40,648 bases of DNA, from IMG/VR virus record IMGVR_UViG_3300025849_000078, positions 1 through 40,648 of that record. One strand, 5' to 3'. The stretch's first letter is position 1. Each line of letters begins with the position of its first letter. Below are positions 6,771 to 25,106 of the stretch, one piece after another. Under the pieces are notes generated by a model. It saw only the letters and a program-made list of their open reading frames with translations, was not told the origin of the DNA and did not search any database. Origin of the DNA: a virus. The position numbers and the translations under genes are program-made.

Positions 6771-7091
6771 ATGGCAACAGGAATATTAGGAAGTGCAGAT
6801 TTAGCAGCAGCGGCAAACACCACTGTGTATACTGTACCTGCGGATACATTTGCAGTAGTTACTGTTAATGTAACAAATAGAAATTCAGCATCAAGAGATG
6901 TTAGGGTGGCACTAGCGGCGTCAGGAACGCCAACTAATGCTGAATATATAGAATTCGATACCGAACTACTAGGAAATGGTAGTCTAGAGCGAGGCGGAAT
7001 TGTGTTAGATGCAACTAAAAATGTTGTAGTATATTCTAACAGTACTGACGTAAATGTTGTAGTATATGGTATAGAAACAGCAACAGCATAA
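6771..7091 (+). CDS. Small virion-type beta protein, hypothetical
   Basis: This is a 106-residue protein with a clear ribosome binding site (CGGAG) upstream. The sequence is dominated by short beta-strand-like stretches (TVYTVPADTFAVVTVNV, NVVVYSNSTDVNVVVYG) and is rich in Ala, Val, Thr and Asn, with no signal peptide or membrane segment. The sequence resembles small beta-sandwich proteins found next to tail fibres in marine phages, although I do not recognise a named family. It sits 16 bases after the giant fibre gene and 10 bases before the next fibre-like gene, all in the same direction, so a co-expressed virion role is likely. There is no evidence for catalysis. Confidence 0.6.
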   Translation: MATGILGSADLAAAANTTVYTVPADTFAVVTVNVTNRNSASRDVRVALAASGTPTNAEYIEFDTELLGNGSLERGGIVLDATKNVVVYSNSTDVNVVVYGIETATA

Positions 7092-7101
7092 AGGAGCAGA
7101 C

Positions 7102-7803
7102 ATGCGCAGAATTAACACAGGAACAGTTGGAAGACCTCTACTAGCACGATTGGTGAGTGTTGACAACAAACTATCAAGTCTTGTTCCAAACGAGAACATT
7201 ACCATTGAACCAAATGGATCAGGTGATGTTGTTATTCCAGCAAATCCACAGTTGCTTGTACAAAATACTACACAAAGTACAACTACAGCAACAGGAGGCC
7301 TAATACTTAGTGGTGGTATAGGCGTAGCGAAAAATGCTTATGTTGGTGGCGCTATAAATGTCGCAGGAACACTAACATCACAATATTTAACAGCTGCAAC
7401 ATCAACACACATGACAATACCTCAGGGTACAACAGCACAACGCCCCGGCTCTCCGTCCGAAGGCTTTGTAAGGTTTAACACTGACTACGGTCATTTAGAG
7501 TGGTACACAGGATCAGCTTGGACAGTAGGCGGATTTCAAAACGTTGCTGTTACAGGTGGAAGAACAACATTAAGTTGGCAAACAAATTGGGTACAAGGAA
7601 ATCACACAGTTACACTACCAAGTTCGCCAGCACAAGGTGATAGAGTTAGATTTTTCTTAGTAAGTGGATCAAACTTTACAGTAGCACGTAATGGTAAACT
7701 AATTAACGGCGATTCGTCAAACCTAACAGTTACTACAGAAGATGCAGCGTTTGAAATGGTATTCCACAATAATACTTACGGATGGCGTATCTTTACAATC
7801 TAA
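7102..7803 (+). CDS. Tail fibre-like structural protein
   Basis: This is a 233-residue protein preceded by AGGAG. The middle contains a Gly/Ala-rich stretch (GGLILSGGIGVAKNAYVGGA) typical of phage fibre beta-helical or trimeric shafts. It is followed by a PGSPSEGFVRFNTDYGHLEWY segment with the 'G.(I/V).(F/W)(F/N)T....LE.Y.G..W' pattern used repeatedly in phage fibres and also seen in the sheath insertion and the 21352-22614 protein of this window. The C-terminal 80 residues look like an all-beta tip. Position between the giant fibre gene and three Cys-rich paralogues supports a tail or fibre role. Exact assignment (shaft, tip or whisker) is not possible from sequence alone. Confidence 0.6.
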   Translation: MRRINTGTVGRPLLARLVSVDNKLSSLVPNENITIEPNGSGDVVIPANPQLLVQNTTQSTTTATGGLILSGGIGVAKNAYVGGAINVAGTLTSQYLTAATSTHMTIPQGTTAQRPGSPSEGFVRFNTDYGHLEWYTGSAWTVGGFQNVAVTGGRTTLSWQTNWVQGNHTVTLPSSPAQGDRVRFFLVSGSNFTVARNGKLINGDSSNLTVTTEDAAFEMVFHNNTYGWRIFTI

Positions 7804-7818: not shown

Positions 7819-8601
7819 ATGGCAACTTACGATAGTTATAAAAAAGTTACAAATGAACAAATCATTGATGGCACAGTTACCGAAGATAAAATGGGAACTG
7901 GCGTTCGTCATAGACTTTGTACAAAGTGGCTAATCGGTGATGCATGTCGTTGTTCAGCTGGTTGCTGTTGTTTGTGGACTGCACCAGGATGTACACGTAG
8001 AGTGCATTTCGAGTTATGGGCTGCTGGCGGCAACGGATCAGGCGCTTGTTCATGTAACAGATGCCACCACTATCAAGGCGCAGGCGGCGGCTCTTATAAT
8101 CAAAAATCAATTACTACAGCACCAGGTTGTACATACAGAATGTGTGCAGGTGGAGTATACAGATGTTTGAGTAGAGAGTGTTCTGCTTGTAACGGATGTA
8201 TTTCATATGTTTGCGGTTACAATGCTTGTCAACTATGTACAGTAGGCGGACGTTGCGGTAACGCTAACACAGACTGGTCAAACTATTGTTTCAGTTGTTG
8301 GGGTTGTTGTGTTGGACCAGGATGTGGAACAGGCAGAGGTCAAATGCACATTATGAGTCACATTGGTGTGTTTAGTGGAATTTACAACTGTCACTGTCAC
8401 CATCAATATGTTAGACCAACAGCGGCACCTATGTTAGGTGGTAACGTTTCACAGGGTATATCAGTATGTTGGATGCGTTGCGGTTGTTGGATTGCACCTC
8501 CGGGACATGGTGGACAAAGTGCAAACTCTACATATTGTGGACGTTGTTGTGGCCAAGGTGGTACAGGCGGTCCAGGAGTAGTAAAATTAACATTTACGTA
8601 A
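7819..8601 (+). CDS. Cys/Gly-rich adhesin-like virion protein, paralogue 1
   Basis: This is a 260-residue protein with 33 cysteines (about 13%), preceded by AGGAG. The N-terminus (MATYDSYKKVTNEQIIDGTV) is shared with the next two genes and looks like a fibre attachment segment. A core of type FELWAAGGNGSGACSC resembles the 'VPxGVxxVxVELWGAGGGG' Gly-rich domain of phage tail adhesins, here studded with CxC, CC, CCC and CxxC motifs. The C-terminus is conserved (CGRCCGQGGTGGPG). There is no signal peptide. Because phage virion proteins fold in the reducing cytoplasm, so many cysteines suggest metal binding, later disulfide cross-linking or S-linked modification; which of these applies is unknown. 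It is the first of a tandem triplication. Confidence 0.7.
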   Translation: MATYDSYKKVTNEQIIDGTVTEDKMGTGVRHRLCTKWLIGDACRCSAGCCCLWTAPGCTRRVHFELWAAGGNGSGACSCNRCHHYQGAGGGSYNQKSITTAPGCTYRMCAGGVYRCLSRECSACNGCISYVCGYNACQLCTVGGRCGNANTDWSNYCFSCWGCCVGPGCGTGRGQMHIMSHIGVFSGIYNCHCHHQYVRPTAAPMLGGNVSQGISVCWMRCGCWIAPPGHGGQSANSTYCGRCCGQGGTGGPGVVKLTFT

Positions 8602-8611
8602 GGAATTTTTA

Positions 8612-9394
8612 ATGGCAAGTTATGCAAGTTATAAAAAGGTACACGGCGACCAAATGGTTAATGGAACATTAACCGATAATGATATTAATTCAAATACATT
8701 AAATAATTATGGTGTAAAATGGATATCAGGTGTACCTTGTAGATGTAGTGGCGGTTGCTGTTGCAACTGGACTGTGCCTACCGGAGTATGCAGATTAACT
8801 GTAGACTTATGGGGCGCAGGCGGCAATGGTAGTGGTGCGTGTTCATGTAGTAGATGTCATCACTTTAAAGCAGCCATGGGCGGCAGTCATAACTCGAAAA
8901 CACTAGGCACAAGACCGGGCTGTACATATACTTTATGTGCGGCTGGTGTGTACAGATGTTTAAGTAGAGAATGTGTAGGTTGTAATGGATGTACAACTTA
9001 TGCAAATGGATACAATATGTCAGGATTTTGTGCTTGCGGCGGATATAGAGCTGAAGCAAATACAAGTTGGTCAAACGGTTGTTTCTACACTAACGCATAT
9101 TGTAGATGTCCAACACACAACAATGGCGACATGTATGTTGTGCCAAACAATCCAGGATGGTCAACAGCGTCAGGATATTGTCATTGCCATACTCAAGAAA
9201 TACACCAAGGTGTTGCGCCAATTATCGGCGGCATTAGTACACAAGGTATTAGAGAATGTTGGATACGTTGTGGTAACTTTAGTGTACCGTACGGAACAGG
9301 CGGACAAAGTGCAATGAATACTTATTGTGGCAGTAGTTGTTGCGGACAAGGCGGAACTGGCGGCGGCGGCCTCATAAGAGTAACATATATTTAG
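8612..9394 (+). CDS. Cys/Gly-rich adhesin-like virion protein, paralogue 2
   Basis: This is a 260-residue paralogue of its two neighbours, with 27 cysteines. It keeps the same order of blocks: N-terminal SYKKVHGDQMVNGTL, PCRCSGGCCCNWTVP, LWGAGGNGSGACSCSRCHH, VYRCLSRECVGCNGC and a C-terminal Cys-Cys-Gly-Gln-Gly-Gly block. The central 60 residues and the N-terminal 40 are the most diverged parts, as expected if these contact different partners or receptors. It starts 10 bases after paralogue 1 with an AAGGA ribosome binding site and ends 8 bases before paralogue 3, so the three are translated from one transcript. The function is inferred only from the adhesin-like Gly-rich pattern and location. 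Confidence 0.7.
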   Translation: MASYASYKKVHGDQMVNGTLTDNDINSNTLNNYGVKWISGVPCRCSGGCCCNWTVPTGVCRLTVDLWGAGGNGSGACSCSRCHHFKAAMGGSHNSKTLGTRPGCTYTLCAAGVYRCLSRECVGCNGCTTYANGYNMSGFCACGGYRAEANTSWSNGCFYTNAYCRCPTHNNGDMYVVPNNPGWSTASGYCHCHTQEIHQGVAPIIGGISTQGIRECWIRCGNFSVPYGTGGQSAMNTYCGSSCCGQGGTGGGGLIRVTYI

Positions 9395-9402
9395 GAACAA
9401 AA

Positions 9403-10212
9403 ATGGCAAGTTATAGAAGTTATAAAAAAGTTACAGGTGCACAAATTGTTGATGGTGCTGTTGATGCAAACAACCTTGCTGCAGGAGTCAGAGACAACTG
9501 GTGTGTAAAATGGACATGGGGAAATCCGTGTAGATGTTCAGCAGGATGTTGTTGTCTATGGACGGTTCCAAGTCAAGTTAGAAATTTAAACTTTGAACTA
9601 TGGGGTGCTGGCGGCAACGGATCAGGTGCATGTTCATGTAATAGATGTCAACACTTTGGACCTCCAGGGGGCGGAGCATACACAAGTAAATCTATAACTT
9701 CGACATCTGGTTGTACATATAGAATGTGTGCGGCAGGTGTTTATAGATGTTTAAGTAGAGAGTGTAACGGCTGTAATGGTTGTTCATCATTTGTATGCGG
9801 TGCAGGACTTTGTGTTTGTGCATGTGGCGGACAGCGTGGTTGTGCAAACGGCTCTTGGACAGATTCATGTTTCTCAGAGATGCCATATTGTGTAAGACCA
9901 GGGTGTAACGGTACAAGTGCAAGTGGCGACTATGTAGGTTATACACACGGCGGTAACTGGCAAGGGGCTTCGTCATATATGTATCCAGGCGGTGCTTGTC
10001 ACTGTTGGAAGCACATAGGACACTCAACAGGTGCTGTAGCACTTAATACAGGTAACCCTGAACAAAACTCAAACTATTGCTGGATTAGATGCGGGTGCTG
10101 GATTGCACCATACGGGCAAGGTGGACAAAGTGCAACATCAAACTATTGCGGTAGATGCTGTGGCCAAGGCGGCACAGGCGGACCGGGATTAGTCAAACTA
10201 ACTTTTTACTAA
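9403..10212 (+). CDS. Cys/Gly-rich adhesin-like virion protein, paralogue 3
   Basis: I chose the ATG at 9403 (269 residues, MASYRSYKKVTGAQ) because it matches the N-termini of both upstream paralogues; the open frame extends further upstream into the previous gene without a matching start. It has 31 cysteines, again in CxC, CCC, CxxC and CC groups, with the block FELWGAGGNGSGACSC and the C-terminus CGRCCGQGGTGGPG. The region around residues 150-210 has an insertion rich in Gly, Ser, Tyr and His relative to paralogue 2. The ribosome binding site is weak (AGGAAC). The gene closes the tandem array and is followed by a late-type promoter box. Confidence 0.7.
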   Translation: MASYRSYKKVTGAQIVDGAVDANNLAAGVRDNWCVKWTWGNPCRCSAGCCCLWTVPSQVRNLNFELWGAGGNGSGACSCNRCQHFGPPGGGAYTSKSITSTSGCTYRMCAAGVYRCLSRECNGCNGCSSFVCGAGLCVCACGGQRGCANGSWTDSCFSEMPYCVRPGCNGTSASGDYVGYTHGGNWQGASSYMYPGGACHCWKHIGHSTGAVALNTGNPEQNSNYCWIRCGCWIAPYGQGGQSATSNYCGRCCGQGGTGGPGLVKLTFY

Positions 10213-10248: not shown

Positions 10249-10977
10249 ATGCCAATGATACAATTTAATTACACATATAATGTTCCAAACGAACTATGTG
10301 TAGACCATACTTTTACTGATGGAAATACAAGAACAGCTCAGTATGACGGACCTGATAAACTTTTCTTCATTGTAAACAATACTACAAACAGAGAAGAATT
10401 AGGACCTATCACAGAGATTGAAAAAAACGACGGAAGACCAATTCCACCTGATTGCAGATATGTAGAAATAGATTGCACAGAATATCCAGAACTGTGTCAA
10501 TTACGTGGACCGGTTATTGACGAAATGGAAGAAGACCATACAGGTGAAGCTACTCCAACTGGAGCAACAGCAATTACTGGGTATGCACCATTTACATATC
10601 AAACACCGGTATTACCATATCAGTTTTACCATGATGATCAAGTAACATTTGATGCAGACGGTGTACCAACAATACCAATTAAAGAACCTAGAGATTATAT
10701 TATGGGTATTGATATTGGAAGAGACATTACTTGGGATGATGTTAGAGCAAAACGTAATCAGTTCTTAAAAAACAGTGATAGTGAAATTACTGATGATATG
10801 CCTGCAGCACTTAGAACAGAGTGGGAAACATATCGTCAACGACTACGTGACTGGCCAACAGTAATGCAAAATGCAAACGTTCCGCCAATAATGGCGTACA
10901 ACATGGAACCAATTCAAGTTGGAGCAGATCCAGTAACAGGACAGATTGATCCAGATACAGATTCAATCGTAATGTAA
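10249..10977 (+). CDS. Tail-fibre assembly chaperone-like protein
   Basis: This is a 242-residue protein with a good ribosome binding site (AGGAG) and a late box upstream. The C-terminal third contains WDDVRAKRNQFLKNSDSE followed by a Trp-Glu-x-Tyr-Arg-Gln-Arg-Leu-Arg-Asp-Trp-Pro stretch. This is the typical pattern of phage tail assembly chaperone domains ('Rn.lL..sDw...pD.p......W..YRq.LRdlp'). The N-terminal part is not recognised and has three Cys in a short span (residues about 66-85). Such domains are usually encoded directly after fibre genes and help fold or trimerise fibre tips. Here it follows the three Cys-rich proteins, which are the natural clients. It is the last gene before a strong hairpin terminator. 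Confidence 0.6.
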   Translation: MPMIQFNYTYNVPNELCVDHTFTDGNTRTAQYDGPDKLFFIVNNTTNREELGPITEIEKNDGRPIPPDCRYVEIDCTEYPELCQLRGPVIDEMEEDHTGEATPTGATAITGYAPFTYQTPVLPYQFYHDDQVTFDADGVPTIPIKEPRDYIMGIDIGRDITWDDVRAKRNQFLKNSDSEITDDMPAALRTEWETYRQRLRDWPTVMQNANVPPIMAYNMEPIQVGADPVTGQIDPDTDSIVM

Positions 10978-11103: not shown

Positions 11104-12126
11104 TTGACAAGATCTACAGCATTTTTTATTAACGGCGGAGCAGGAAGAGTGATATGTTCCTTGCCAGCATTTGAACTATATGAAAAAGAAAATCCAGACG
11201 ACGACTTTATCATTGTATGTGAAGGCGGCATGGACTTTTACAAAGGACATCCTACTCTACACAATAGAGCATATGACCATTGGCATAAAGGGTTATTCGA
11301 AGAACATATCAAAGATAGAAATTGTGTAACACCAGAACCATATAGGGTTTGGGAATACTACAATCAAAAATGTGATTTAGCACAAGCATTTGATATTGAT
11401 ATTAATAACAAAGGATTACGTAAAGTTGGTGATCCAAAAATATATGCTAACAAGCAAGAAATTGTACAAGCTGCAACCATTGTTGAAGAAATAAAACAAG
11501 GTACTGGTAAAGATAAAGTATTAGTAGTACAACCATTTGGAAGAACAACTGAAACACACGGCGACTTTATTGTAGATCCGACTAGTAGAAGTTTTCAACT
11601 AAACAATATTGTAGATATTATTAACGTACTAAAAAAAGAATACGCAGTAATTATAATGAGCGAAATAGTAGTTCCGCTAGAAGAAACAGAAAATAAACAA
11701 TATCCAGTAGCACAGCCACAAATACCAGATCTACGTATTTGGTCAAGTATAATTGATGTAGCTGATCACTTTTTAGGATGTGATAGTTTGGGACAACATA
11801 TGGTAAAAGCACTAGGTGGAAGTGCAACTATTATAACAGGATCAACATATCCTATTAATATTTCTTATCCAGATGATCCTAAGTTTGATATTATAGACGT
11901 AGGTGACGGAAAACGTGTATATGCGCCAATACGTTTAACTATGGAAGAAGAACAAGATAGACATAACGACGAAGTTATGGAATTAACAAAAAAACAAATT
12001 GAAGAAATCTGTAGTAGCGTAAGAAAACATTTAGGCAAGGGTACAGTAGTAAAGGCACCAGAAACTAAAAAACAAATGTCTAAACTAGTACCAGGTAATA
12101 CTAATTTAATTGGAGATAAAAAATAA
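11104..12126 (+). CDS. Glycosyltransferase, GT9/heptosyltransferase-like
   Basis: This is a 340-residue protein with TTG as the apparent start, six bases after GGAG. The N-terminus FFINGGAGRVICSLPAFELY looks like the first strand and Gly-rich loop of a GT-B fold. The C-terminal half has DHFLGCDSLGQHMVKALGG (Asp227, Ser228, His232), matching the 'D.fiG.DSg..HlAaAlg' nucleotide-sugar motif of GT9 heptosyltransferases. It opens a coupled operon that also encodes HldE, HldD and a GmhB-like phosphatase, so ADP-heptose is the likely donor. The acceptor is unknown: a virion protein, host surface glycan or another small molecule. The last 40 residues are Lys-rich and not conserved in the family. It could use a different sugar, but the context favours heptose. 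Confidence 0.65.
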   Translation: MTRSTAFFINGGAGRVICSLPAFELYEKENPDDDFIIVCEGGMDFYKGHPTLHNRAYDHWHKGLFEEHIKDRNCVTPEPYRVWEYYNQKCDLAQAFDIDINNKGLRKVGDPKIYANKQEIVQAATIVEEIKQGTGKDKVLVVQPFGRTTETHGDFIVDPTSRSFQLNNIVDIINVLKKEYAVIIMSEIVVPLEETENKQYPVAQPQIPDLRIWSSIIDVADHFLGCDSLGQHMVKALGGSATIITGSTYPINISYPDDPKFDIIDVGDGKRVYAPIRLTMEEEQDRHNDEVMELTKKQIEEICSSVRKHLGKGTVVKAPETKKQMSKLVPGNTNLIGDKK

Positions 12127-13931
12127 TGAGTCAATGGATTGCTGCAATTACAAGAGGACACAACGGCGGTGTATGTTTACTTAAAGACGGCGAAATTGTA
12201 TTTGCTATTGAAGAAGAAAGATTAAGTAGACAAAAATATGATGGCGGTCCTTATGCATCTATGGTTAAAATTTTAGATTACACTGACAAGATTGATTTTT
12301 TAGTTATTGCACATACACAACCAGTAAACGAAACAGCAGGGAAAGTAGATTTTACAGGTGATGATGTATACACTGGACTTGCACGTAAACTAGGACTAAT
12401 TGATAATAGTCCAAGCATTGATGTATTAAATCATCCACAAGTAGTTGACCTAAGTCATATACATCATAAACTACATGCTGCATGTGCTTTTTATAGAAGT
12501 GGATTTGAAACAGCAACAGCCGTAATTGTTGACGGTGCAGGAACATTTATACCAACACAAATGGACGGTTGGGATAATATGTTATACGAATTAGAAAGTA
12601 TTTTTACATGTGAGTACCCATATAATATAAAAACTATTTGGAAACACTTAGGAGGTAACGGACCGTTTAGAGCTGCATATATTCCTAATATGACTAGTGA
12701 AAAATTTGATGAAGAAGGTACACACGAAGTTATTATTGACGACGGAGCAGGCATTGTTAAAGCATATGAAGCTGTAACACAGTACTGTGGATTTAGTGCA
12801 ATCGAAGCAGGCAAAACTATGGGGCTATCACCTTATGGCAAACCAAATGATAATATCCCTCCATTATATCACAAAGCTGGCGGAGATTGGACAGTAGCAA
12901 ACGCTAACTTAATTAGACCAACTTATCCAAACGGTGCTTTAGTAAATGAAAACTTTTTTAAAGAATTACACACACCAGAAGGAACAATGCAAGATAAACT
13001 TGTTGATTTAGATAATAGAAGAGATTTAGCATATGCATTGCAAAGTGAAAGTCAAGAACAAGTACTCAAGTTAATTTTAGATGCTGTAGAACGTACAGGC
13101 AATAAAAACGTTGTAGTAAGTGGCGGTTATGGGCTTAACTGTGTTGCTAATTATTACTATTTAGACACCTTAAAAGATATGGATATTAACTTATATGTTG
13201 AACCAGTATCTAGTGATGCAGGAACAGCAATTGGTGCAGCATTTATTGCATATCACCAAACATCGCAAAATAAAGAAGTACTACCATTCGGTGAAAGTTT
13301 ATATTTAGGGTTACCCCGCAATTATACAAGCGAACAAGTGAATGCAACAGCTGAAAAATATAATGCTACGCTAGAAACAACAGATGTAGAATCAGTTGTA
13401 AAACTTATGTGTGATAAAAACATTGTAGCAATGTTCCAAGGACGTTCAGAATCAGGACCAAGAGCATTAGGTAATAGAAGTCTAATGTATGATCCAACAG
13501 ATCCTAACGGCAAAGATCATGTTAACAAAGTTAAGCGTAGAGAATACTTCCGGCCATTTGCTGGCACTATATTAGCTGAACATGCAGAAGAATGGTTTGA
13601 TATGCGTGGAATGAAAGAGTCTCCACATATGATGTATGCAATGAATTGTCAACCAGGCGTTGGCGAAAAAATTCCAAGTATTATACACGTTGACGGCACA
13701 TGTCGCATACAAACAGTAACAAGAGAACAGAATCCATTATACTATGACTACATTAATGAATTCTATAAACAGACAGGTGTTCCTATTATATTCAATACAT
13801 CATTTAACTTAGGGGGAGAGCCTTTGGTTGAAACATTAGATGATGCTTTTAGAACTCTTGCTAATAGTGACATTGAATATCTGTACATAGCAGAACACGG
13901 AATTTTAGCAAAGGTAGAAAATGTTAGTTAA
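12126..13931 (+). CDS. O-carbamoyltransferase, NodU/CmcH/TobZ family
   Basis: This is a 601-residue protein of full family length. The N-terminal domain has GHNGG near residue 11 and SHIHHKLHAACAFYRSGF (His113, His114, His117), the metal-binding HxxxH-type region of the YrdC-like/Kae1-like carbamoyltransferases, followed by VIVDGAG. The C-terminal domain has GRSESGPRALGNRSLMYDP, the hallmark 'EfGPRALGnRSil.DP'. Known members move a carbamoyl group from carbamoyl phosphate, through carbamoyl-adenylate, to a sugar hydroxyl in nodulation factors and antibiotics. The start overlaps the stop of the GT gene by one base (TAATG), so the two are translationally coupled. Carbamoylation of the transferred heptose or another sugar is the likely role; the substrate is inferred. 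Confidence 0.85.
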   Translation: MSQWIAAITRGHNGGVCLLKDGEIVFAIEEERLSRQKYDGGPYASMVKILDYTDKIDFLVIAHTQPVNETAGKVDFTGDDVYTGLARKLGLIDNSPSIDVLNHPQVVDLSHIHHKLHAACAFYRSGFETATAVIVDGAGTFIPTQMDGWDNMLYELESIFTCEYPYNIKTIWKHLGGNGPFRAAYIPNMTSEKFDEEGTHEVIIDDGAGIVKAYEAVTQYCGFSAIEAGKTMGLSPYGKPNDNIPPLYHKAGGDWTVANANLIRPTYPNGALVNENFFKELHTPEGTMQDKLVDLDNRRDLAYALQSESQEQVLKLILDAVERTGNKNVVVSGGYGLNCVANYYYLDTLKDMDINLYVEPVSSDAGTAIGAAFIAYHQTSQNKEVLPFGESLYLGLPRNYTSEQVNATAEKYNATLETTDVESVVKLMCDKNIVAMFQGRSESGPRALGNRSLMYDPTDPNGKDHVNKVKRREYFRPFAGTILAEHAEEWFDMRGMKESPHMMYAMNCQPGVGEKIPSIIHVDGTCRIQTVTREQNPLYYDYINEFYKQTGVPIIFNTSFNLGGEPLVETLDDAFRTLANSDIEYLYIAEHGILAKVENVS

Positions 13932-14562: not shown

Positions 14563-15077
14563 TGCGGGCTGACCTTTTTAGTGTACCAGTATTCATAGAC
14601 ACTATTGATTTAGAAAAGATCAACATAAGTGATGAAGAAACTGAACCAACATGGCTTAGTGAAACTCCTAGTACGTTTACAAAAGAACATAAAATTTCGC
14701 CTGAAACATACGAATATCTAGTAAGCGTTATTTCTAAAAACTTAGAGCATCTAGTTGGTCCTAATCCAAGGTTTGGACCTATATGGCGAAACAAGTATAA
14801 AGAAACTGATTGGCAAGATATACACATACATCCAAATAGTGCTTGGAGTTTTATTATATATGAAACTGTAGAAGAATCAAAAACTGTTTTTATGAATCCT
14901 ATGTTCAAAGATATTCAAAACCATTTAGGAACAAATGTAAAAGAATTTCCGCTTGACTTTAGGCCAGAATTAAAGACAGGAGATATGATTATTTTTCCTA
15001 GTTTCTTAGAACACTATGTACGTCCTGGCTCAGTTGGAGCAACTATTAGTGGTAACATATATATGGATTATGAATGA
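14562..15077 (+). CDS. 2OG-Fe(II) oxygenase-like protein
   Basis: This is a 171-residue protein. WQDIHIHPNSAWSFIIY followed by GDMIIFPSFLEHYVRPG is the layout of the phage-enriched putative 2OG-Fe(II) oxygenase family (first His in a 'IH.H' strand, then 'G.lilFPs.l.H.V.p'). The usual Asp two residues after the first His is replaced by Pro/Asn, so metal binding may use other residues or be lost. It starts on the base where the previous gene stops (TAATG) and overlaps HldE by four bases (ATGA). It has no signal peptide or membrane segment. Its role is not known beyond operon context. Confidence 0.6.
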   Translation: MRADLFSVPVFIDTIDLEKINISDEETEPTWLSETPSTFTKEHKISPETYEYLVSVISKNLEHLVGPNPRFGPIWRNKYKETDWQDIHIHPNSAWSFIIYETVEESKTVFMNPMFKDIQNHLGTNVKEFPLDFRPELKTGDMIIFPSFLEHYVRPGSVGATISGNIYMDYE

Positions 15078-16210
15078 AAGTATTAGTGATAGGCGATGTC
15101 ATTATTGACAAATATATTTACGGTACGTCTACACGTATCAGCCCAGAAGCACCTGTACCTGTAATAACTTACATTGATGAAAAAGAAACAAGAGGCGGTG
15201 CAGGACTTGTATATGAAAATTTAAAAAGTTTAGGTGTTGATGTTGATATGTTTGAAACACCTGGAGACGTTAGTGTTAAAACTAGAATAATCTGTGACGG
15301 ACATTATATTACACGTATCGACGATGATGCATCGGCAAAAGGAATGGAAGTACTAAAACAAGTACAAGAAACTGATTTTTCACAGTACGACTATGTTGTA
15401 CTAAGTGACTACAACAAAGGTGTGTTAGATGAAGCAAAAGATATTATTGCACACATTAACAAGTATAATTGTAAAGTAATTGTTGATCCAAAAGAAAATG
15501 CTTGGTTCTACGAAAATGCTTGGTTAGTAAAACCTAACTACAACGAATTCCATGATTTAGGATTTAATGAATGGCAGGGTAATATTATTACAACTAATGC
15601 TGGCGAAGAAGTTATTGCACACATTGATGGTAAAAACTATGAAATACCTGTTGACAATTTAGAAGTAGCAGACGTAACAGGAGCCGGTGATTGTTTTATG
15701 GCCGCATTTGTTTATGGCCTTACAAATAACTATTCACATAAAAAATGTTTACAAATTGCTGTTAAAGGATCAACAGAAAGTGTAAAACATGCTGGCACAT
15801 ATATTCTTAAAAAGTCTGACTTAGAAGATGTAGTTGTATGGACTAATGGAGTGTTTGATATACTTCATATTGGCCATTTAAAGCTTCTTAGACACGCTAA
15901 AACGCTTGGTAATAGACTAATAGTGGGTATTAACAGCGATTCTAGTGTTAAGAGGTTAAAAGGTGATTTAAGACCCATAAACGATCAAACCACCCGCAAG
16001 GAAAGCCTCTTAGAGCTTGGTTTTGTAGACGATGTTATTGTATTTGAAGAAGATACACCGTTGCAAGCAATTACCAAATTAGAGCCAGATATTATAGTCA
16101 AAGGCGGTGACTATACATTTGATACTGTAGTAGGAAATCATCTTGCTAAGGTTGTTATTTTTCCTACAGTTGAAGGACACAGTACAACAAGGATGATAAA
16201 TGATTTATGA
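15074..16210 (+). CDS. hldE: Bifunctional heptose kinase/adenylyltransferase HldE
   Basis: This is a 378-residue fusion. Residues 1-245 are a PfkB/ribokinase-type kinase (GDVIIDKYIYG near residue 7, RGGAGLVYENL near 40, catalytic GAGD with Asp206). Residues 255-378 are a nucleotidyltransferase (TNGVFDILHIGHLKLL with HIGH at 265-268, then IVKGGDYT). This order is that of E. coli HldE (477 residues), which phosphorylates D-glycero-beta-D-manno-heptose 7-phosphate and later adenylates the 1-phosphate. The kinase half is about 70 residues shorter than in E. coli, as expected for a compact phage version. HldD and a GmhB-like phosphatase are in the same operon, so ADP-heptose synthesis is nearly complete. 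Overlap with both neighbours shows tight coupling. Confidence 0.9.
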   Translation: MKVLVIGDVIIDKYIYGTSTRISPEAPVPVITYIDEKETRGGAGLVYENLKSLGVDVDMFETPGDVSVKTRIICDGHYITRIDDDASAKGMEVLKQVQETDFSQYDYVVLSDYNKGVLDEAKDIIAHINKYNCKVIVDPKENAWFYENAWLVKPNYNEFHDLGFNEWQGNIITTNAGEEVIAHIDGKNYEIPVDNLEVADVTGAGDCFMAAFVYGLTNNYSHKKCLQIAVKGSTESVKHAGTYILKKSDLEDVVVWTNGVFDILHIGHLKLLRHAKTLGNRLIVGINSDSSVKRLKGDLRPINDQTTRKESLLELGFVDDVIVFEEDTPLQAITKLEPDIIVKGGDYTFDTVVGNHLAKVVIFPTVEGHSTTRMINDL

Positions 16211-16726: not shown

Positions 16727-17533
16727 ATGAAGATATTAATAACGGGTCATAAAGGGTTTATAGGACAAAACATGATGTCTTATCTAGAATCTAAACATGA
16801 AGTTGCAGGGTACGAATTTAATCCCGAACAATTACCTTTGGTAAAAGATTATGATTGGGTAATACATTTAGGAGCAATTAGTAGTACAACTGAAACTGAC
16901 GTAGATAAAGTTATATTACATAATTACGAATTTACTAAATGGCTCTATAATCAATGTAATGCTTATAAAGTTAATATGCAGTATGCATCAAGTGCAAGTG
17001 TTTATGGCAATACAACACACTTTACTGAGTCAGGTCCGAGTGATCCTAAAAGTCCTTATGCTTGGAGCAAGTATTTGTTTGATAGGTGGATCGGCGGGAT
17101 GAATCCGCAAATTACAATACAAGGATTTCGTTATTTTAATGTGTATGGACCCAATGAAGATCACAAAGGTGAGCAGGCAAGTCCTATACATAAGTTTACA
17201 GAACAAGCAAAAGTAGGAAAGATAAAGCTATTTGAAAATAGTGAAAATTATAAAAGAGACTTTGTGTGCGTAAGTGATATATGCGAAATACATGAGAAAA
17301 TGCTTGACATAAACGAAAAAGGTGTTTATAATATAGGTACTGGAACTGCTATTAGTTTTCAACAAGTTGCTAACTTAGTTGCAAACAAATATAATTCTAA
17401 TATTGAATATATACCTATGCCTAATAACTTAAAAGGTCAATATCAAGAATATACATGTGCTAACTTAGATAGTTTAAGTACATTAGTAAAGCACAAATTT
17501 AAAAGTGTAGAGGAGTATGTAAATGGATGTTAA
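16727..17533 (+). CDS. hldD: ADP-L-glycero-D-manno-heptose 6-epimerase HldD-like
   Basis: This is a 268-residue short-chain dehydrogenase/epimerase. ITGHKGFIG (residues 5-13) is the NAD(P)-binding GxxGxxG loop, HLGAISSTTETD follows, and YAWSK gives Tyr111/Lys115 of the catalytic pair. RYFNVYGPNEDHKG near residue 135, KLFE...KRDFV, and a late NLKGQYQEYT segment are the specific pattern of HldD rather than of a generic UDP-sugar epimerase. E. coli HldD is 310 residues, so this copy is slightly shorter, mostly in loops. It converts ADP-D-glycero- to ADP-L-glycero-manno-heptose, the last step of the pathway. AAGG lies upstream. Assignment is strong. Confidence 0.85.
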   Translation: MKILITGHKGFIGQNMMSYLESKHEVAGYEFNPEQLPLVKDYDWVIHLGAISSTTETDVDKVILHNYEFTKWLYNQCNAYKVNMQYASSASVYGNTTHFTESGPSDPKSPYAWSKYLFDRWIGGMNPQITIQGFRYFNVYGPNEDHKGEQASPIHKFTEQAKVGKIKLFENSENYKRDFVCVSDICEIHEKMLDINEKGVYNIGTGTAISFQQVANLVANKYNSNIEYIPMPNNLKGQYQEYTCANLDSLSTLVKHKFKSVEEYVNGC

Positions 17534-19819: not shown

Positions 19820-20389
19820 ATGGAATTTACAGGAATAGAAGAATACCCAAACATATTTGAAAAAGAGTATTGCGAAGAAATTATAAAACATTTTAATGTT
19901 ATGGCACAGAGAGAAGTTGTACGTCCTAATCACGGCGAAGCAAGCAGTGACGATAGAGTAGTTTTTGATTGGGCACATACACAAAATCAATATCATTACG
20001 ACTTTGGTTTATGTGATTATTTTTATAAAAAAATGCACGAAGTTTATACTACGCAATATATAGAAAAATATACAATGTTAAAACAAAGTGAACAACATAG
20101 TCCAAAAGGGATGAGTGTACAACGCACACGGCCGCATCAAGGATATCATGCTTGGCATGCTGAAGCATCAGATCAAAGTAGTAGCACAAGGGTTGTTAAT
20201 TACATGCTATATCTCAACGATGTTGACGAAGGCGGCGAAACAGAATTCTTATATCAAGGTAAAAAAATAGCACCTGAACAAGGTAAAGTTGTAATTTTTC
20301 CTTGTGGTTTTACATTTCCTCACCGAGGCAATCCTATATATAAAGGTGAAAAATATATTATAACAGGTTGGTATACCTATGATAGATAA
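19820..20389 (+). CDS. 2OG-Fe(II) oxygenase, prolyl 4-hydroxylase-like
   Basis: This is a 189-residue protein one base after the SGNH gene. HAWHAEAS gives His113-x-Glu115, a variant of the usual HxD. NYMLYLNDVDEGGETEF is the conserved prolyl-hydroxylase strand-loop, PHRGNP holds distal His168, and KGEKYIITGWY supplies Lys178 as the 2-oxoglutarate ligand. That is a near-complete active site of the P4H-like family. Substrates in this family include prolines of proteins and free amino acids. Together with the other five oxygenase-like genes it makes oxygenation the most repeated chemistry of the operon. It overlaps the phosphatase gene by 11 bases. Confidence 0.75.
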   Translation: MEFTGIEEYPNIFEKEYCEEIIKHFNVMAQREVVRPNHGEASSDDRVVFDWAHTQNQYHYDFGLCDYFYKKMHEVYTTQYIEKYTMLKQSEQHSPKGMSVQRTRPHQGYHAWHAEASDQSSSTRVVNYMLYLNDVDEGGETEFLYQGKKIAPEQGKVVIFPCGFTFPHRGNPIYKGEKYIITGWYTYDR

Positions 20390-20975
20390 ACATAAAGTTG
20401 TAAATGCTGCACCTACACTTCCTACACGATGTGTCATAGGATTAGATCGTGATGGTGTAATTAACAGAGATCTTGGAACATATGTAAAGTCAGCAGATCA
20501 ATTTGAGCCTATTGAAGGAAGTTTAGAAGCAATAGCAAAATTACGTAGGCTTGGACATCGAATTGTAATACTTACAAATCAAGGAGGTATTGCTAAGGGC
20601 GTATTAACAAATGAACAAGTTGAATCAGTACACGAACACATGCTAAACTTATTTGGCGAAGCAGGATGTTCTAGTATTGAAGGCATATACTACAGTGAAA
20701 GTAGTTTAAAAAATGATATGTTTGCAAAGCCGAATACAGGTATGTTCAAACGCTGTGCAAAAGAAATAAAAGGTGTGAAATGGTCTCAAGGGTTTTACGT
20801 AGGCGATAAGATGTCCGATTTAAAGGCTGCTATGAAGGTTGGTGCTAGACCTGTGCTTGTAAGAACAGGTTATGGCCTAGAAACTGAAAAACAGCTAAAT
20901 AAGTATACATACAAGGATATTAAGAAGAAAGCCTATGTATTTGATAATTTAGCTGACTTTGCAGATCAGTTATAA
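20379..20975 (+). CDS. HAD phosphatase, GmhB-like (heptose-1,7-bisphosphate phosphatase)
   Basis: This is a 198-residue HAD-superfamily protein. GLDRDGVINRD holds the nucleophile Asp23 and acid/base Asp25, ILTNQGGIAKG is motif II with Thr, KPNTGMF corresponds to the GmhB 'KP.PGM' motif, and GDKMSDLKAA is motif IV. These are the GmhB/HisB-N features, and HldE and HldD in the same operon make D-glycero-manno-heptose 1,7-bisphosphate the likely substrate. The Cys-rich zinc loop of E. coli GmhB is absent (no CxH...CxC), so the copy is trimmed. It is the last cluster gene, overlapping the previous oxygenase by 11 bases. A late box lies just after it. Confidence 0.8.
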   Translation: MIDKHKVVNAAPTLPTRCVIGLDRDGVINRDLGTYVKSADQFEPIEGSLEAIAKLRRLGHRIVILTNQGGIAKGVLTNEQVESVHEHMLNLFGEAGCSSIEGIYYSESSLKNDMFAKPNTGMFKRCAKEIKGVKWSQGFYVGDKMSDLKAAMKVGARPVLVRTGYGLETEKQLNKYTYKDIKKKAYVFDNLADFADQL

Positions 20976-21351: not shown

Positions 21352-22614
21352 ATGGTCTTACCTGTAGCTCCCGTATTCGATAGAGTTAGATTAGTACCAC
21401 GCCCTAACGATTTTTTAAATAGAAACGTTGGTGCAAGTGGTGAGCTTTTCTACGAGAAAGAAACCAAAACTCTAAGAGTTTATAACGGACTTAGTCGAGG
21501 CGGCTTTGAAATAGTTAGTCAAGACCGGTTACGTGTTAACGCAGCGAATGCCGAAGTTGCTACAGTAAAATACAATGTTACAATTGGTAATGATGGTGTA
21601 AGTAACAAATATATATTCAATGCGGGTACAGACTATGCACCTGAATTAAATTTTGTTGTAGGATATACATATCTTTTTGATCAATCAGATCAAACAAATT
21701 TATACTATCCAAACCCAGAAGGCGGCGCAATAAATCAACATCCACTAAACTTTAGTTCAGATAATTTAAACGGAGTATTAGGTGGCGGCACAGCATATTT
21801 AGAAGGTGTAGTTTATAAACTAGAAGGATTAGAAGTTACACAAGCTCTTTACAACAGTAATTTTTCACGTGCAGTAAAACGAGAAGTACAGATTACTGTT
21901 ACATCATCAACTCCTACAGCATTATACTATTGGTGTACACAGCATCTTAATATGGGTTCTACTATTACTGTAGGACCACCAGGTGCTGGAAGTGGTGCAA
22001 GTTTAGAAGTAAGTGATACAGCACCAGATAATCCTAGTGCAGGCAGTATTTGGTACAACAGCACATCAGGATTTTTATATGTTTATATAGAAGATGCAGA
22101 CAGTAGTCAGTGGGTACAACCTGTTGCAGGTAATGTATTCAGCGGAGCGTTTACAGACTTAACAGCTACGCCAACAACACTTGCAGGGTACGGCATTACA
22201 GATGCGGCATTGTCAACAGACATACCAACAAGTTTAACAGACTTAGGAATATCTGATGGTAGTGCGACACAAGTACTTACTACAGATGGTGCAGGAAACT
22301 TTACATTTGAAGATGCAGCAGGTGGATCATCATATGATCAAAGTTTAAACACAACCGATTCAGTAACTTTTGCAAGTATTAGTTCGCCTACATTTTTAAA
22401 TAGCGGAACTGGTGTTACTAATTTAACAAGTGCAAGTACCCTAACATTACAAGCTGTAGATGTTGTAAGAGTAACAGGCTCTCCTTTTAGATTACCAAGT
22501 TTTACTACAGTAGAAAAAAGTGCCTTGAGTGCTGTTAATGGCGATATGGTATATGATAGTGATTTAAATAAAGCACAAGTTTATGAAGGCGGTGCTTGGG
22601 CGAGCTTAGTATAA
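21352..22614 (+). CDS. Fibre-like virion protein with cupredoxin-like domain
   Basis: This is a 420-residue protein with AAGGA upstream. The N-terminus has GELFYEKETKTLRVYNG, a common phage fibre adaptor motif. Residues about 75-207 look like a cupredoxin beta-sandwich: His130 (QHPLNFSS), then YYWCTQHLNMG giving Cys195, His198 and Met201, the ligand order His-Cys-His-Met of type 1 copper proteins, although spacing to Met is short. AGSIWYNSTSGFLYVYI near residue 230 is a fibre repeat also found in the sheath insertion. The C-terminus (AVNGDMVYDSDLNKAQVYEG) is a typical fibre end. Copper binding is untested; the fold may be used only structurally. Confidence 0.65.
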   Translation: MVLPVAPVFDRVRLVPRPNDFLNRNVGASGELFYEKETKTLRVYNGLSRGGFEIVSQDRLRVNAANAEVATVKYNVTIGNDGVSNKYIFNAGTDYAPELNFVVGYTYLFDQSDQTNLYYPNPEGGAINQHPLNFSSDNLNGVLGGGTAYLEGVVYKLEGLEVTQALYNSNFSRAVKREVQITVTSSTPTALYYWCTQHLNMGSTITVGPPGAGSGASLEVSDTAPDNPSAGSIWYNSTSGFLYVYIEDADSSQWVQPVAGNVFSGAFTDLTATPTTLAGYGITDAALSTDIPTSLTDLGISDGSATQVLTTDGAGNFTFEDAAGGSSYDQSLNTTDSVTFASISSPTFLNSGTGVTNLTSASTLTLQAVDVVRVTGSPFRLPSFTTVEKSALSAVNGDMVYDSDLNKAQVYEGGAWASLV

Positions 22615-25106
22615 TGAGTGAAAAAGAATACGTAGTAATTGTAAAAGCCGATGTTGATCTTGAAGCCTTTGATGCTGAAGTAGCAGCTGACACAGGTGCA
22701 GGCCAAATACCAAATCGTGCAGTAACAGTAGCAAATCCAAGAATTGGATCAAAGCGTATGACACATTGGATGCTTACAGATGCTGAAGCAGAAACTCTTG
22801 CACAAGACGACAGAGTAGTTGCTGTAGAGATTCCACCAGATCAAAGAACTGATATGGACATTGGATTGCATGCTCGACAAACAGCAGTATTTGAAAGACA
22901 ATCTGGTAACAATTCAACTTGGGTAAACTGGGGATTACGTAGATGTGATGAAGCAACAAATACGTTTGCTGATGCAACCACATTATCTGGAGACCATCTT
23001 TATGCTTTAGACGGAACAGGTGTAGACTTTATTGTACAAGATAGTGGTATACAAGCAGATCATCCTGAGTTTGCTATTCCGATTGATCCAGAATACAACA
23101 ATAGTGCAGTTAGCGATGTTGTCGGTGATGGTAGTGATTTTTTCAAACGTGAAGTTACTGTTAATGGTGTAAGAATTATGGCTGCAGGTGGAGTTGGAGG
23201 ACAAACAGCAGTGCCTGATTCATTTGTTGAAAAAGTAGCACGTATGTTTGAACTGTTTACAGATCCAACAGGCACAGATATAAACGGAACAGCACAACGA
23301 GCATTAATAAAAAATTTAAGTGGTGACACAGGAACATATCATGTAGGCAAACCAACAATACAAAGAGTAGCAAGAGGTGCTGGTGCAGACTATAGCACAA
23401 ACTTTTTAACAGATGCTGGCATTATATTTTGGAACCTAACAGACTTGTTTGACGCTACTGTTCAAAACGATATGGTGTGGTATCTAAACTCAACAGGTGG
23501 AGCACCAGGCGATGGCGATCAAGATGCACAAGAAGTTATTGAACACGTATTTCACACAATACATATGCATGGCTTAGATGCACAAACATTAAAGTTGTAT
23601 CCTTTTTTAAGTTCAGATTGGAACACTGGTCCATTGTATAATGCAATGGTAGAAGCATACGACGGCGGATTCTGGGATCCATCAGGCTACGAGCCAAGTC
23701 CGGGTGCTTTTAAAACTGATGGAGATGCATTCGAAGTGGCTGCAAAAGAGTATTTGTATCTACTAAACTTTTGTATGTTTGATTATTCAAGTCTATGGGA
23801 AGGCGGAAGCCTTAGTCCTGAATGGAGCGATAGTATGCGTACACCAGCAGGCATACAATCTAATAACCCTCTAGGTTATGCACTACACAATTCGTATATT
23901 GCTCCGGTAATTAGTAAACCAACACTTGCTACTATTAGAAATATATTCCAAGACGGAGACACAGGTGATCCAACAGTTGCAGGTGCATCAGGATACGTAG
24001 TAGACACAGGATCGAGAGTACAGCAAATTGATTGGTTTGCTGGCAGTGGAATTGTAGGCGAAACACAAGACCAAAACTTTTATACAGATTATGACGGGCA
24101 TGGCACTCATTGTGCAGGCATTGCCGCAGGTAAGACATTTGGCTGGGCAAAAAACGCAAGAATATATGCCCAAAAATTAGGTGGCTTAGAAGGTACAGCT
24201 GATCCTAATAATGGAATTAGTATTACTAACGCATTTGATTGTATTAGATTGTGGCACAATAATAAATCAGGTGCTGATGCAAACAGACCTACTGTTGTTA
24301 ACATGAGTTGGGGATATGGATTCTCAACAACATCTGATCCAACAAGCGGAACATATAGAGGCTCAGCTTGGACATATGGTGTTGATTATAGTACTCGAGC
24401 AGAGCTAGAAACAGCAACCGGCGTAGGTATTAAAAGATTAAACAGCGGAACAACTACTAGGTTGTCAACAAGAAATGCAACAGTTGATGCAGAAATAGAA
24501 GATATGGTTTCAGCAGGAATACACGTAGTAATTGCAGCTGGTAATAACTATAACAAAGTAGAAGCATTTGGTGGCACTGATTATGACAATGATGCATTAT
24601 TTGGAGCAACTACAATAAACTATCATAGAGAGTTCACACCGTATAGCTCAAATGCATACATGGTAGCTAGTTTAGATAGTACTACACAAGATGACAGCGG
24701 CACTGAAAAAGACAGAACAAGTATATTTTCAAGTAGAGGTCCAGGATGTAACATATGGGCACCGGGTTCGAATATTATGAGTGCTTGTAGCACACCATAT
24801 AACGCAAGTAAATTTGCACCAATAACATATTTTGATGATGCGAGTTTTTATCAAATGAGTATAAGTGGAACATCAATGGCGGCACCACAAGTAGCCGGTA
24901 TATTATGTTTACACTTAGAATCAGACCCAACACTTACTCCGGCACAATTAAAATCAAAAATTATAACAGATTCAAAAGATGTTGTATATAATACAGGTGT
25001 AGATAACGACTATGATCAGGTAAGTACAAGTACTTTTGGGCAAGATGCAAAAATTTTATATAGTAGATATGCAAGTGCAAATGCATTATCTATAACAACA
25101 GAATGA
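22614..25106 (+). CDS. Subtilisin-like serine protease with large insertion
   Basis: I chose the ATG at 22614, overlapping the previous stop (TAATG), giving 830 residues. The S8 triad is complete: Asp143 in VQDSGIQ, His496 in DGHGTHCAGIAAG, Ser754 in SISGTSMAAPQVAG, with oxyanion Asn644 in IAAGNN. About 350 residues separate Asp and His, where subtilases usually have a few tens; the extra segment (roughly 155-475) contains a His-rich helix EHVFHTIHMHG. There is no signal peptide. An N-terminal domain of about 100 residues could be an I9-like propeptide. It lies between two cupredoxin-bearing fibre genes, so it may be virion-borne and process fibres or degrade a host surface protein. Confidence 0.8.
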   Translation: MSEKEYVVIVKADVDLEAFDAEVAADTGAGQIPNRAVTVANPRIGSKRMTHWMLTDAEAETLAQDDRVVAVEIPPDQRTDMDIGLHARQTAVFERQSGNNSTWVNWGLRRCDEATNTFADATTLSGDHLYALDGTGVDFIVQDSGIQADHPEFAIPIDPEYNNSAVSDVVGDGSDFFKREVTVNGVRIMAAGGVGGQTAVPDSFVEKVARMFELFTDPTGTDINGTAQRALIKNLSGDTGTYHVGKPTIQRVARGAGADYSTNFLTDAGIIFWNLTDLFDATVQNDMVWYLNSTGGAPGDGDQDAQEVIEHVFHTIHMHGLDAQTLKLYPFLSSDWNTGPLYNAMVEAYDGGFWDPSGYEPSPGAFKTDGDAFEVAAKEYLYLLNFCMFDYSSLWEGGSLSPEWSDSMRTPAGIQSNNPLGYALHNSYIAPVISKPTLATIRNIFQDGDTGDPTVAGASGYVVDTGSRVQQIDWFAGSGIVGETQDQNFYTDYDGHGTHCAGIAAGKTFGWAKNARIYAQKLGGLEGTADPNNGISITNAFDCIRLWHNNKSGADANRPTVVNMSWGYGFSTTSDPTSGTYRGSAWTYGVDYSTRAELETATGVGIKRLNSGTTTRLSTRNATVDAEIEDMVSAGIHVVIAAGNNYNKVEAFGGTDYDNDALFGATTINYHREFTPYSSNAYMVASLDSTTQDDSGTEKDRTSIFSSRGPGCNIWAPGSNIMSACSTPYNASKFAPITYFDDASFYQMSISGTSMAAPQVAGILCLHLESDPTLTPAQLKSKIITDSKDVVYNTGVDNDYDQVSTSTFGQDAKILYSRYASANALSITTE

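Follow-up and report, generated by a model that had tools for sequence, protein, structure and literature searches.

Related systems and the locus described here

The SunS/ThtS-type S-glycosyltransferases of glycocins are GT2-type enzymes that act on one or two cysteines of small peptides. They are dedicated cysteine-modifying enzymes, encoded beside the genes of their substrates (compare PMC12139839). The bacterial autotransporter heptosyltransferases (BAHTs) TibC and Aah (PMC4358343) have a GT9-type fold, use ADP-heptose and are dedicated to the modification of a surface adhesin that is encoded next door; TibC modifies serines of autotransporters, has an N-terminal β-barrel and an iron-finger, and requires Asp110 (the equivalent of WaaC Asp13) to activate the serine. 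The fibre protein gp24 of cyanophage Pam3 (PDB 7ypx, 7yfw; PMC9608196), the product of a single gene, is a homotrimer with a TNF-like plus glycine-rich head, and it needs the chaperone gp25.

The 40,648-nucleotide stretch of viral DNA analysed here (IMG/VR record IMGVR_UViG_3300025849_000078, positions 1 to 40,648; below, "the window") contains a locus that may be compared with each of these systems (Table 1). It is like Pam3 in its predicted TNF-like plus glycine-rich head and in the position of a chaperone gene immediately downstream of the fibre genes, but it has three paralogues in place of one gene, and its putative tips have 27–33 cysteines and adjoin a GT9 gene, whereas cysteine goes unmentioned in the text of PMC9608196. 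Its glycosyltransferase (GT) has the GT9-type fold (by prediction), the putative ADP-heptose use and the proposed action on a neighbouring adhesin in common with TibC and Aah; unlike TibC, it has 340 amino acids without barrel or iron-finger, an arginine at the position of the catalytic aspartate, and cysteine as its proposed acceptor. With SunS and ThtS it would share the arrangement of a dedicated S-glycosylation enzyme beside its substrate gene, but here the predicted fold is GT9 and the acceptors would be tens of cysteines in putative virion adhesins.

Table 1. Features of the cysteine-rich locus and adjoining sugar genes, in window coordinates
Feature	Position	Strand	Remarks
Two Cys-free fibre proteins	6771..7803	+	6771-7091 (106 aa) and 7102-7803 (233 aa); same fibre module, upstream of the Cys-rich genes
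Cys-rich putative fibre-tip paralogue 1, phrog_4205	7819..8601	+	260 aa, 33 Cys
Cys-rich putative fibre-tip paralogue 2, phrog_4205	8612..9394	+	260 aa, 27 Cys
Cys-rich putative fibre-tip paralogue 3, phrog_4205	9403..10212	+	269 aa, 31 Cys; predicted TNF-like plus glycine-rich fold
Tail-fibre assembly chaperone-like protein	10249..10977	+	242 aa; passes the PF16778 cutoff; phrog_4912 (tail fiber assembly)
GT9-fold glycosyltransferase (predicted), phrog_8954	11104..12126	+	340 aa, TTG start; Arg15 replaces catalytic Asp; proposed Cys S-glycosyltransferase
NodU-type carbamoyltransferase	12126..13931	+	601 aa; proposed role, carbamoylation of the sugar
HldE-like heptose-7-phosphate kinase/adenylyltransferase	15074..16210	+	below NCBIfam cutoff
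HldD-like ADP-heptose epimerase	16727..17533	+	237.8 bits, cutoff 274.6
GmhB-like heptose bisphosphatase	20379..20975	+	143 bits, cutoff 178

Three tandem cysteine-packed proteins

The initial annotation had picked out three tandem proteins packed with cysteine, and these are real. They are 51–59% identical to one another, and cysteine makes up 10–13% of their residues, about one in nine; among the window's remaining plausible proteins the share is 0–4%, and for nearly all of them it is below 2.2%. The cysteine density of the three is far beyond chance. The third gene starts at the ATG at 9403; a mechanical ORF call had placed the start at 9337, which would run into the second gene and is spurious. 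The three proteins have no direct matches in Pfam or NCBIfam, and a PDB sequence search with their family profile returned chance matches only; all belong to phrog_4205, a PHROG family without an annotated function. Relatives are present in the Kyanoviridae phage S-SSM7, in the isolates S-SSM6a and Sf-FS3, and in 40 IMG/VR loci.

The CxC, CCC and CxxC patterns that had been described as fixed across the paralogues are fixed much more widely, as about 20 cysteine columns are invariant in all 111 distinct full-length copies of the window's family (C49-C50-C51, C77, C82, C109, C116, C121, C127, C139, C156, C163, C199, C201, C226, C230, C249 and C253 are cysteine in every one). Lack of conservation in homologues had been named as one result that would speak against the initial reading; the cysteines are conserved within the family, but about half of the positions turn over between distant clades, and some columns are nevertheless common to clades at 25–30% identity. 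No consistent sequence motif was found when one was sought around the cysteines. Of the 111 copies, 61 have an odd number of cysteines, as do 24 of 35 trios, although the copies are related and do not make an independent count.

Copy number, another check proposed at the outset, is exactly three in 43/43 loci of the window's own family (a contig end cuts a few of the copies). Three is not a general rule, since 42 GT lineages have three copies, 21 have two and nine have one. In a tree, each of the three positions forms its own orthologous clade inside each of two lineages, so the three genes have been maintained as distinct and were not homogenised.

Predicted fold and probable role as fibre tips

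An alignment-based model of paralogue 3 (pLDDT 73.7) matches Pam3 gp24 (7ypx) over residues 31–269 with a Z score of 17.6 (rmsd 2.8 Å, 195 aligned residues); further matches are 7yfw (Z 16.4), the Bxb1 tail tip (12.5) and the TNF-like glycine-rich domain of ALK/LTK (Z 8–11). The window's own three copies have no match in Pfam, PF21722 (Gly_rich_2) included, but related proteins grouped in this PHROG score above the cutoff of that family (24.3 bits), namely those of S-CAM1 (40.1), S-CAM3 (33.9) and locus L158 (33.2). The glycine-rich adhesin frame of the initial annotation is thus upheld by the predicted fold and by these S-CAM members. Relatives of the chaperone-like gene are present in 60 of 67 GT lineages. 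From the predicted fold, the chaperone gene downstream and PF21722 in the distant members, the three proteins are best read as receptor-binding fibre tips. Since the copies at the three positions fall into separate orthologous clades within a lineage, the tip may possibly be a trimer of three different chains, an alternative to the suggestion that the three copies have different receptors. P-SSM2-type relatives have two copies and others have one, so such a trimer would not be a rule for the whole superfamily.

Farther along the window (22596–25106) is an 836-amino-acid fibre-region protein in which a subtilisin-like stretch, VDFIVQDSGIQADHPEF, was noticed by eye; it is a possible virion protease.

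The adjoining glycosyltransferase and sugar genes

The model of the phrog_8954 protein (pLDDT 84.1) has its best matches in 3tov, a GT9 enzyme of Veillonella (Z 21.2), WaaF (19.2), WaaC (17.8) and TibC (17.7); plant NDH-complex chains also fall in this Z 17–21 range, below which the scores drop to 12.7 for the group that follows. The homologue in S-CAM1 is at the PF01075 cutoff (22.0 bits), and a GT9 (heptosyltransferase) fold is predicted for the protein. The donor-site residues Asp261 and His266 of E. coli WaaC align to D227 and H232, which are kept in 15/15 GT members, and a donor motif of this type is present in 89 of 91 GT cluster representatives. In contrast to this retained donor site, the catalytic base Asp13 of WaaC is replaced by arginine in 15/15 aligned members, and arginine occupies the position in every N-terminally complete cluster representative. 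Loss of the base would be compatible with an easily ionised acceptor such as a thiol. The phage GT has no run of four conserved cysteines like the BAHT iron-finger, and its chain enters the catalytic fold at once, with no BAHT-type N-terminal β-barrel ahead of the first strand.

The genes that follow in the operon include a NodU-type carbamoyltransferase, which is present in 65 of 67 GT lineages, and three heptose-type enzymes. The latter score below the equivalog cutoffs in the window, so the identity of the sugar is uncertain. A search around the GT in the Vibrio and Aeromonas loci turned up neither heptose-type nor carbamoyltransferase genes, and these loci have only the GT in common with those of the cyanophages. 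Vibrio and Aeromonas hosts normally make ADP-heptose for their LPS. The LPS of Synechococcus WH8102, on the other hand, is without heptose (PMC4515613), and this difference between hosts would explain why cyanophages bring heptose-type genes of their own. At least four 2OG-Fe(II) oxygenase-like genes also lie among the sugar genes, between 13921 and 20389 (PF13640/PF13759 at 13921, 14562, 16200 and 18032), with two further look-alikes (DUF6445 at 17523, and one at 19820 seen by eye); whether they might hydroxylate the fibre is raised here only as a question.

Linkage of the glycosyltransferase to cysteine-rich proteins

The GT was used as the query in a screen in which every ORF was checked and a protein with at least 6.5% cysteine, within 9 kb, was called cysteine-rich. 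Clustering at 90% identity gave 91 GT lineages, 74 of them with at least 5 kb of upstream DNA, and in 72 of the 74 there are one to three cysteine-rich proteins near the GT. In the remaining two, Aeromonas HJ05 and Vibrio D505, the cysteines of a fibre are clustered locally at 16–17 per 200 amino acids, a density fairly close to the highest control value, 12. In the reverse direction, a GT lies downstream in 35/35 loci found with a cysteine-rich query. The partners have different architectures: they include glycine-rich (PF21722) tips, PF09327 tail-tip fibres of Vibrio phages with 41 and 58 cysteines, and proteins without a family (757 amino acids with 73 cysteines; 670 with 68). The Vibrio, Aeromonas and archaeal partners all belong outside the window's family. 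The GT and the cysteine-rich proteins are thus linked across different fibre architectures, although most of the 74 lineages represent one ancestral syntenic locus, so that the independent associations may number only four to six. A search of viral contigs with the HJ05 GT gave no matches.

The ~757-amino-acid, 73-cysteine protein of the marine virus AG-345-O18 (L225:8024-10297), which is of no known family, sits beside both a 290-amino-acid protein with 31 cysteines and the GT. At L159–L168, ~2.7 kb upstream of each GT, several contigs have two GT copies near one cysteine-rich trio. In a Woesearchaeota MAG, a 591-amino-acid glycine-rich, Tat-signal-like protein with 52 cysteines (L238:8028-9803) adjoins a GT, a carbamoyltransferase and a GmhB-like phosphatase. 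This locus is cellular (its flanks are enolase, Cbf5-type TruB and MCM genes) and is possibly a cellular version of the module; a wider search among 371 genomes, a sample of the phylum, gave one strong match only.

Relatives that lack the glycosyltransferase

Over the 41 kb examined, phages S-SSM5 and S-CAM8 are without a phrog_8954 GT. At the position that corresponds to the cysteine-rich genes they encode a glycine-rich protein (that of S-SSM5 scores 39.4 bits against PF21722), and this slot adjoins the same carbamoyltransferase family as in the GT loci. These proteins have two and one cysteines, respectively, against 27–36, although the hosts are the same. Fold, slot, host and carbamoyltransferase therefore fail to predict cysteine content, and the GT predicts it. 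The glycine-rich fold was rejected on these grounds as the driver of cysteine-richness, as was the carbamoyltransferase, since S-SSM5, S-CAM8, S-SCSM1, HTVC008M and Bellamy have the enzyme and no cysteine-rich fibres in ~40 kb. Similarly, over 72 alignment cells that correspond to cysteines in the Vibrio SBP1 fibre, seven homologues without the GT have only two cysteines; in the other cells S, K, V, D, A, E and N predominate. The S-CAM8 and S-SSM5 loci (L250 and L251) also have three tandem tip-like proteins of 286–354 amino acids after a fibre gene, with 0–3 cysteines, and tandem trios of fibre tips seem to be common in these cyanophages.

What the cysteines may be for

The initial annotation offered metal clusters, oxidative cross-linking or S-linked glycosylation by the neighbouring operon as reasons for the cysteines. 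The comparative data favour the last, because cysteine-richness tracks one GT9-like gene and is lost in relatives without it; the other two leave this linkage and the odd totals unexplained. We infer that the GT puts a sugar on the fibre cysteines, which we consider the best explanation and a little more probable than all others together; that the sugar is heptose in particular is less likely than S-glycosylation itself. In the proposed scheme, each tip would consist of a short N-terminal dock followed by the TNF-like plus glycine-rich head, and would fold as a trimer aided by the chaperone. The HldE/HldD/GmhB-like genes would supply ADP-heptose, and the GT would add the sugar, most likely heptose and perhaps then carbamoylated, to many thiols in the cytoplasm before lysis. 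Its role as the acceptor would account for the abundance of cysteine in the fibre, and the resulting coat might keep the thiols from being oxidised in seawater, protect the tip against proteases or host factors, and influence how receptors are bound. Against this reading, full glycosylation of adjacent CCC triples would be hard, the cysteines have no common surrounding motif, and the independent associations are few.

The broadest form of this idea is that viruses S-glycosylate cysteines by means of a GT9 enzyme with the Asp-to-Arg change, that this enzyme coats the tips with tens of S-linked (carbamoyl)heptoses, that it has led to convergent cysteine enrichment in fibres of differing architecture, and that the system is also present in the archaeal locus, with its secreted, Tat-type cysteine-rich protein; to this composite we give slightly less than even weight.

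Disulphide and metal models are weaker than S-glycosylation. Dense disulphides within and between chains could lock the tip after release into oxidising seawater, with the GT modifying other residues or targets, and the ~20 cysteines invariant in 111 copies, as well as the columns common to clades at 25–30% identity, would also fit disulphide or metal roles. Disulphides, however, account neither for the tight linkage to the GT nor for the loss of cysteine in GT-less homologues, and with odd totals full pairing is impossible within the copy or within a 1:1:1 trimer; in addition, the Vibrio fibre cysteines are mostly isolated (5% are in CC) and stand in place of S, K, V, D, A, E and N, and phage assembly is cytoplasmic. 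We regard this explanation as unlikely. Somewhat less likely still is that host LPS or some other virion protein is the target of the GT and sugar genes, and that cysteine-richness is a separate trait of one ancestral cyanophage fibre locus that was passed on along with those genes. The single syntenic locus of most lineages would agree with this, and similar genes have been called LPS clusters (PMC3037559), but in the Vibrio, Aeromonas and archaeal loci the GT has stayed beside cysteine-rich proteins of other families, no shared sugar gene apart from the GT is seen in the Vibrio and Aeromonas loci, and the cysteines are missing from cyanophages that have this slot and carbamoyltransferase family but no GT. 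Binding of Zn, Fe-S or Cu by the cysteines, which would stabilise or tune the adhesin, is improbable in spite of CxC, CxxC, CHC and CCC motifs strictly conserved within the family, as no metal-site family was matched in Pfam, NCBIfam or the PDB profile search, the motif positions vary between fibre architectures, and the GT linkage is left unexplained.

Implications

In a literature search, which was not exhaustive, no previous description of S-glycosylation in phage fibres came to light. If the preferred reading, S-glycosylation of the fibre cysteines, is true, it would to our knowledge be the first viral S-glycosylation, and the tips would be the most heavily S-glycosylated proteins known to us. 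The enzymes would form a new class of thiol-acting GT9 glycosyltransferases and would be potentially useful tools. Cyanophage sugar clusters have been described as possibly "stuffer DNA" (PMC3037559); S-glycosylation would give them a function, and would also give one to PHROG families 4205, 35878 and 8954, which are common in marine viruses.
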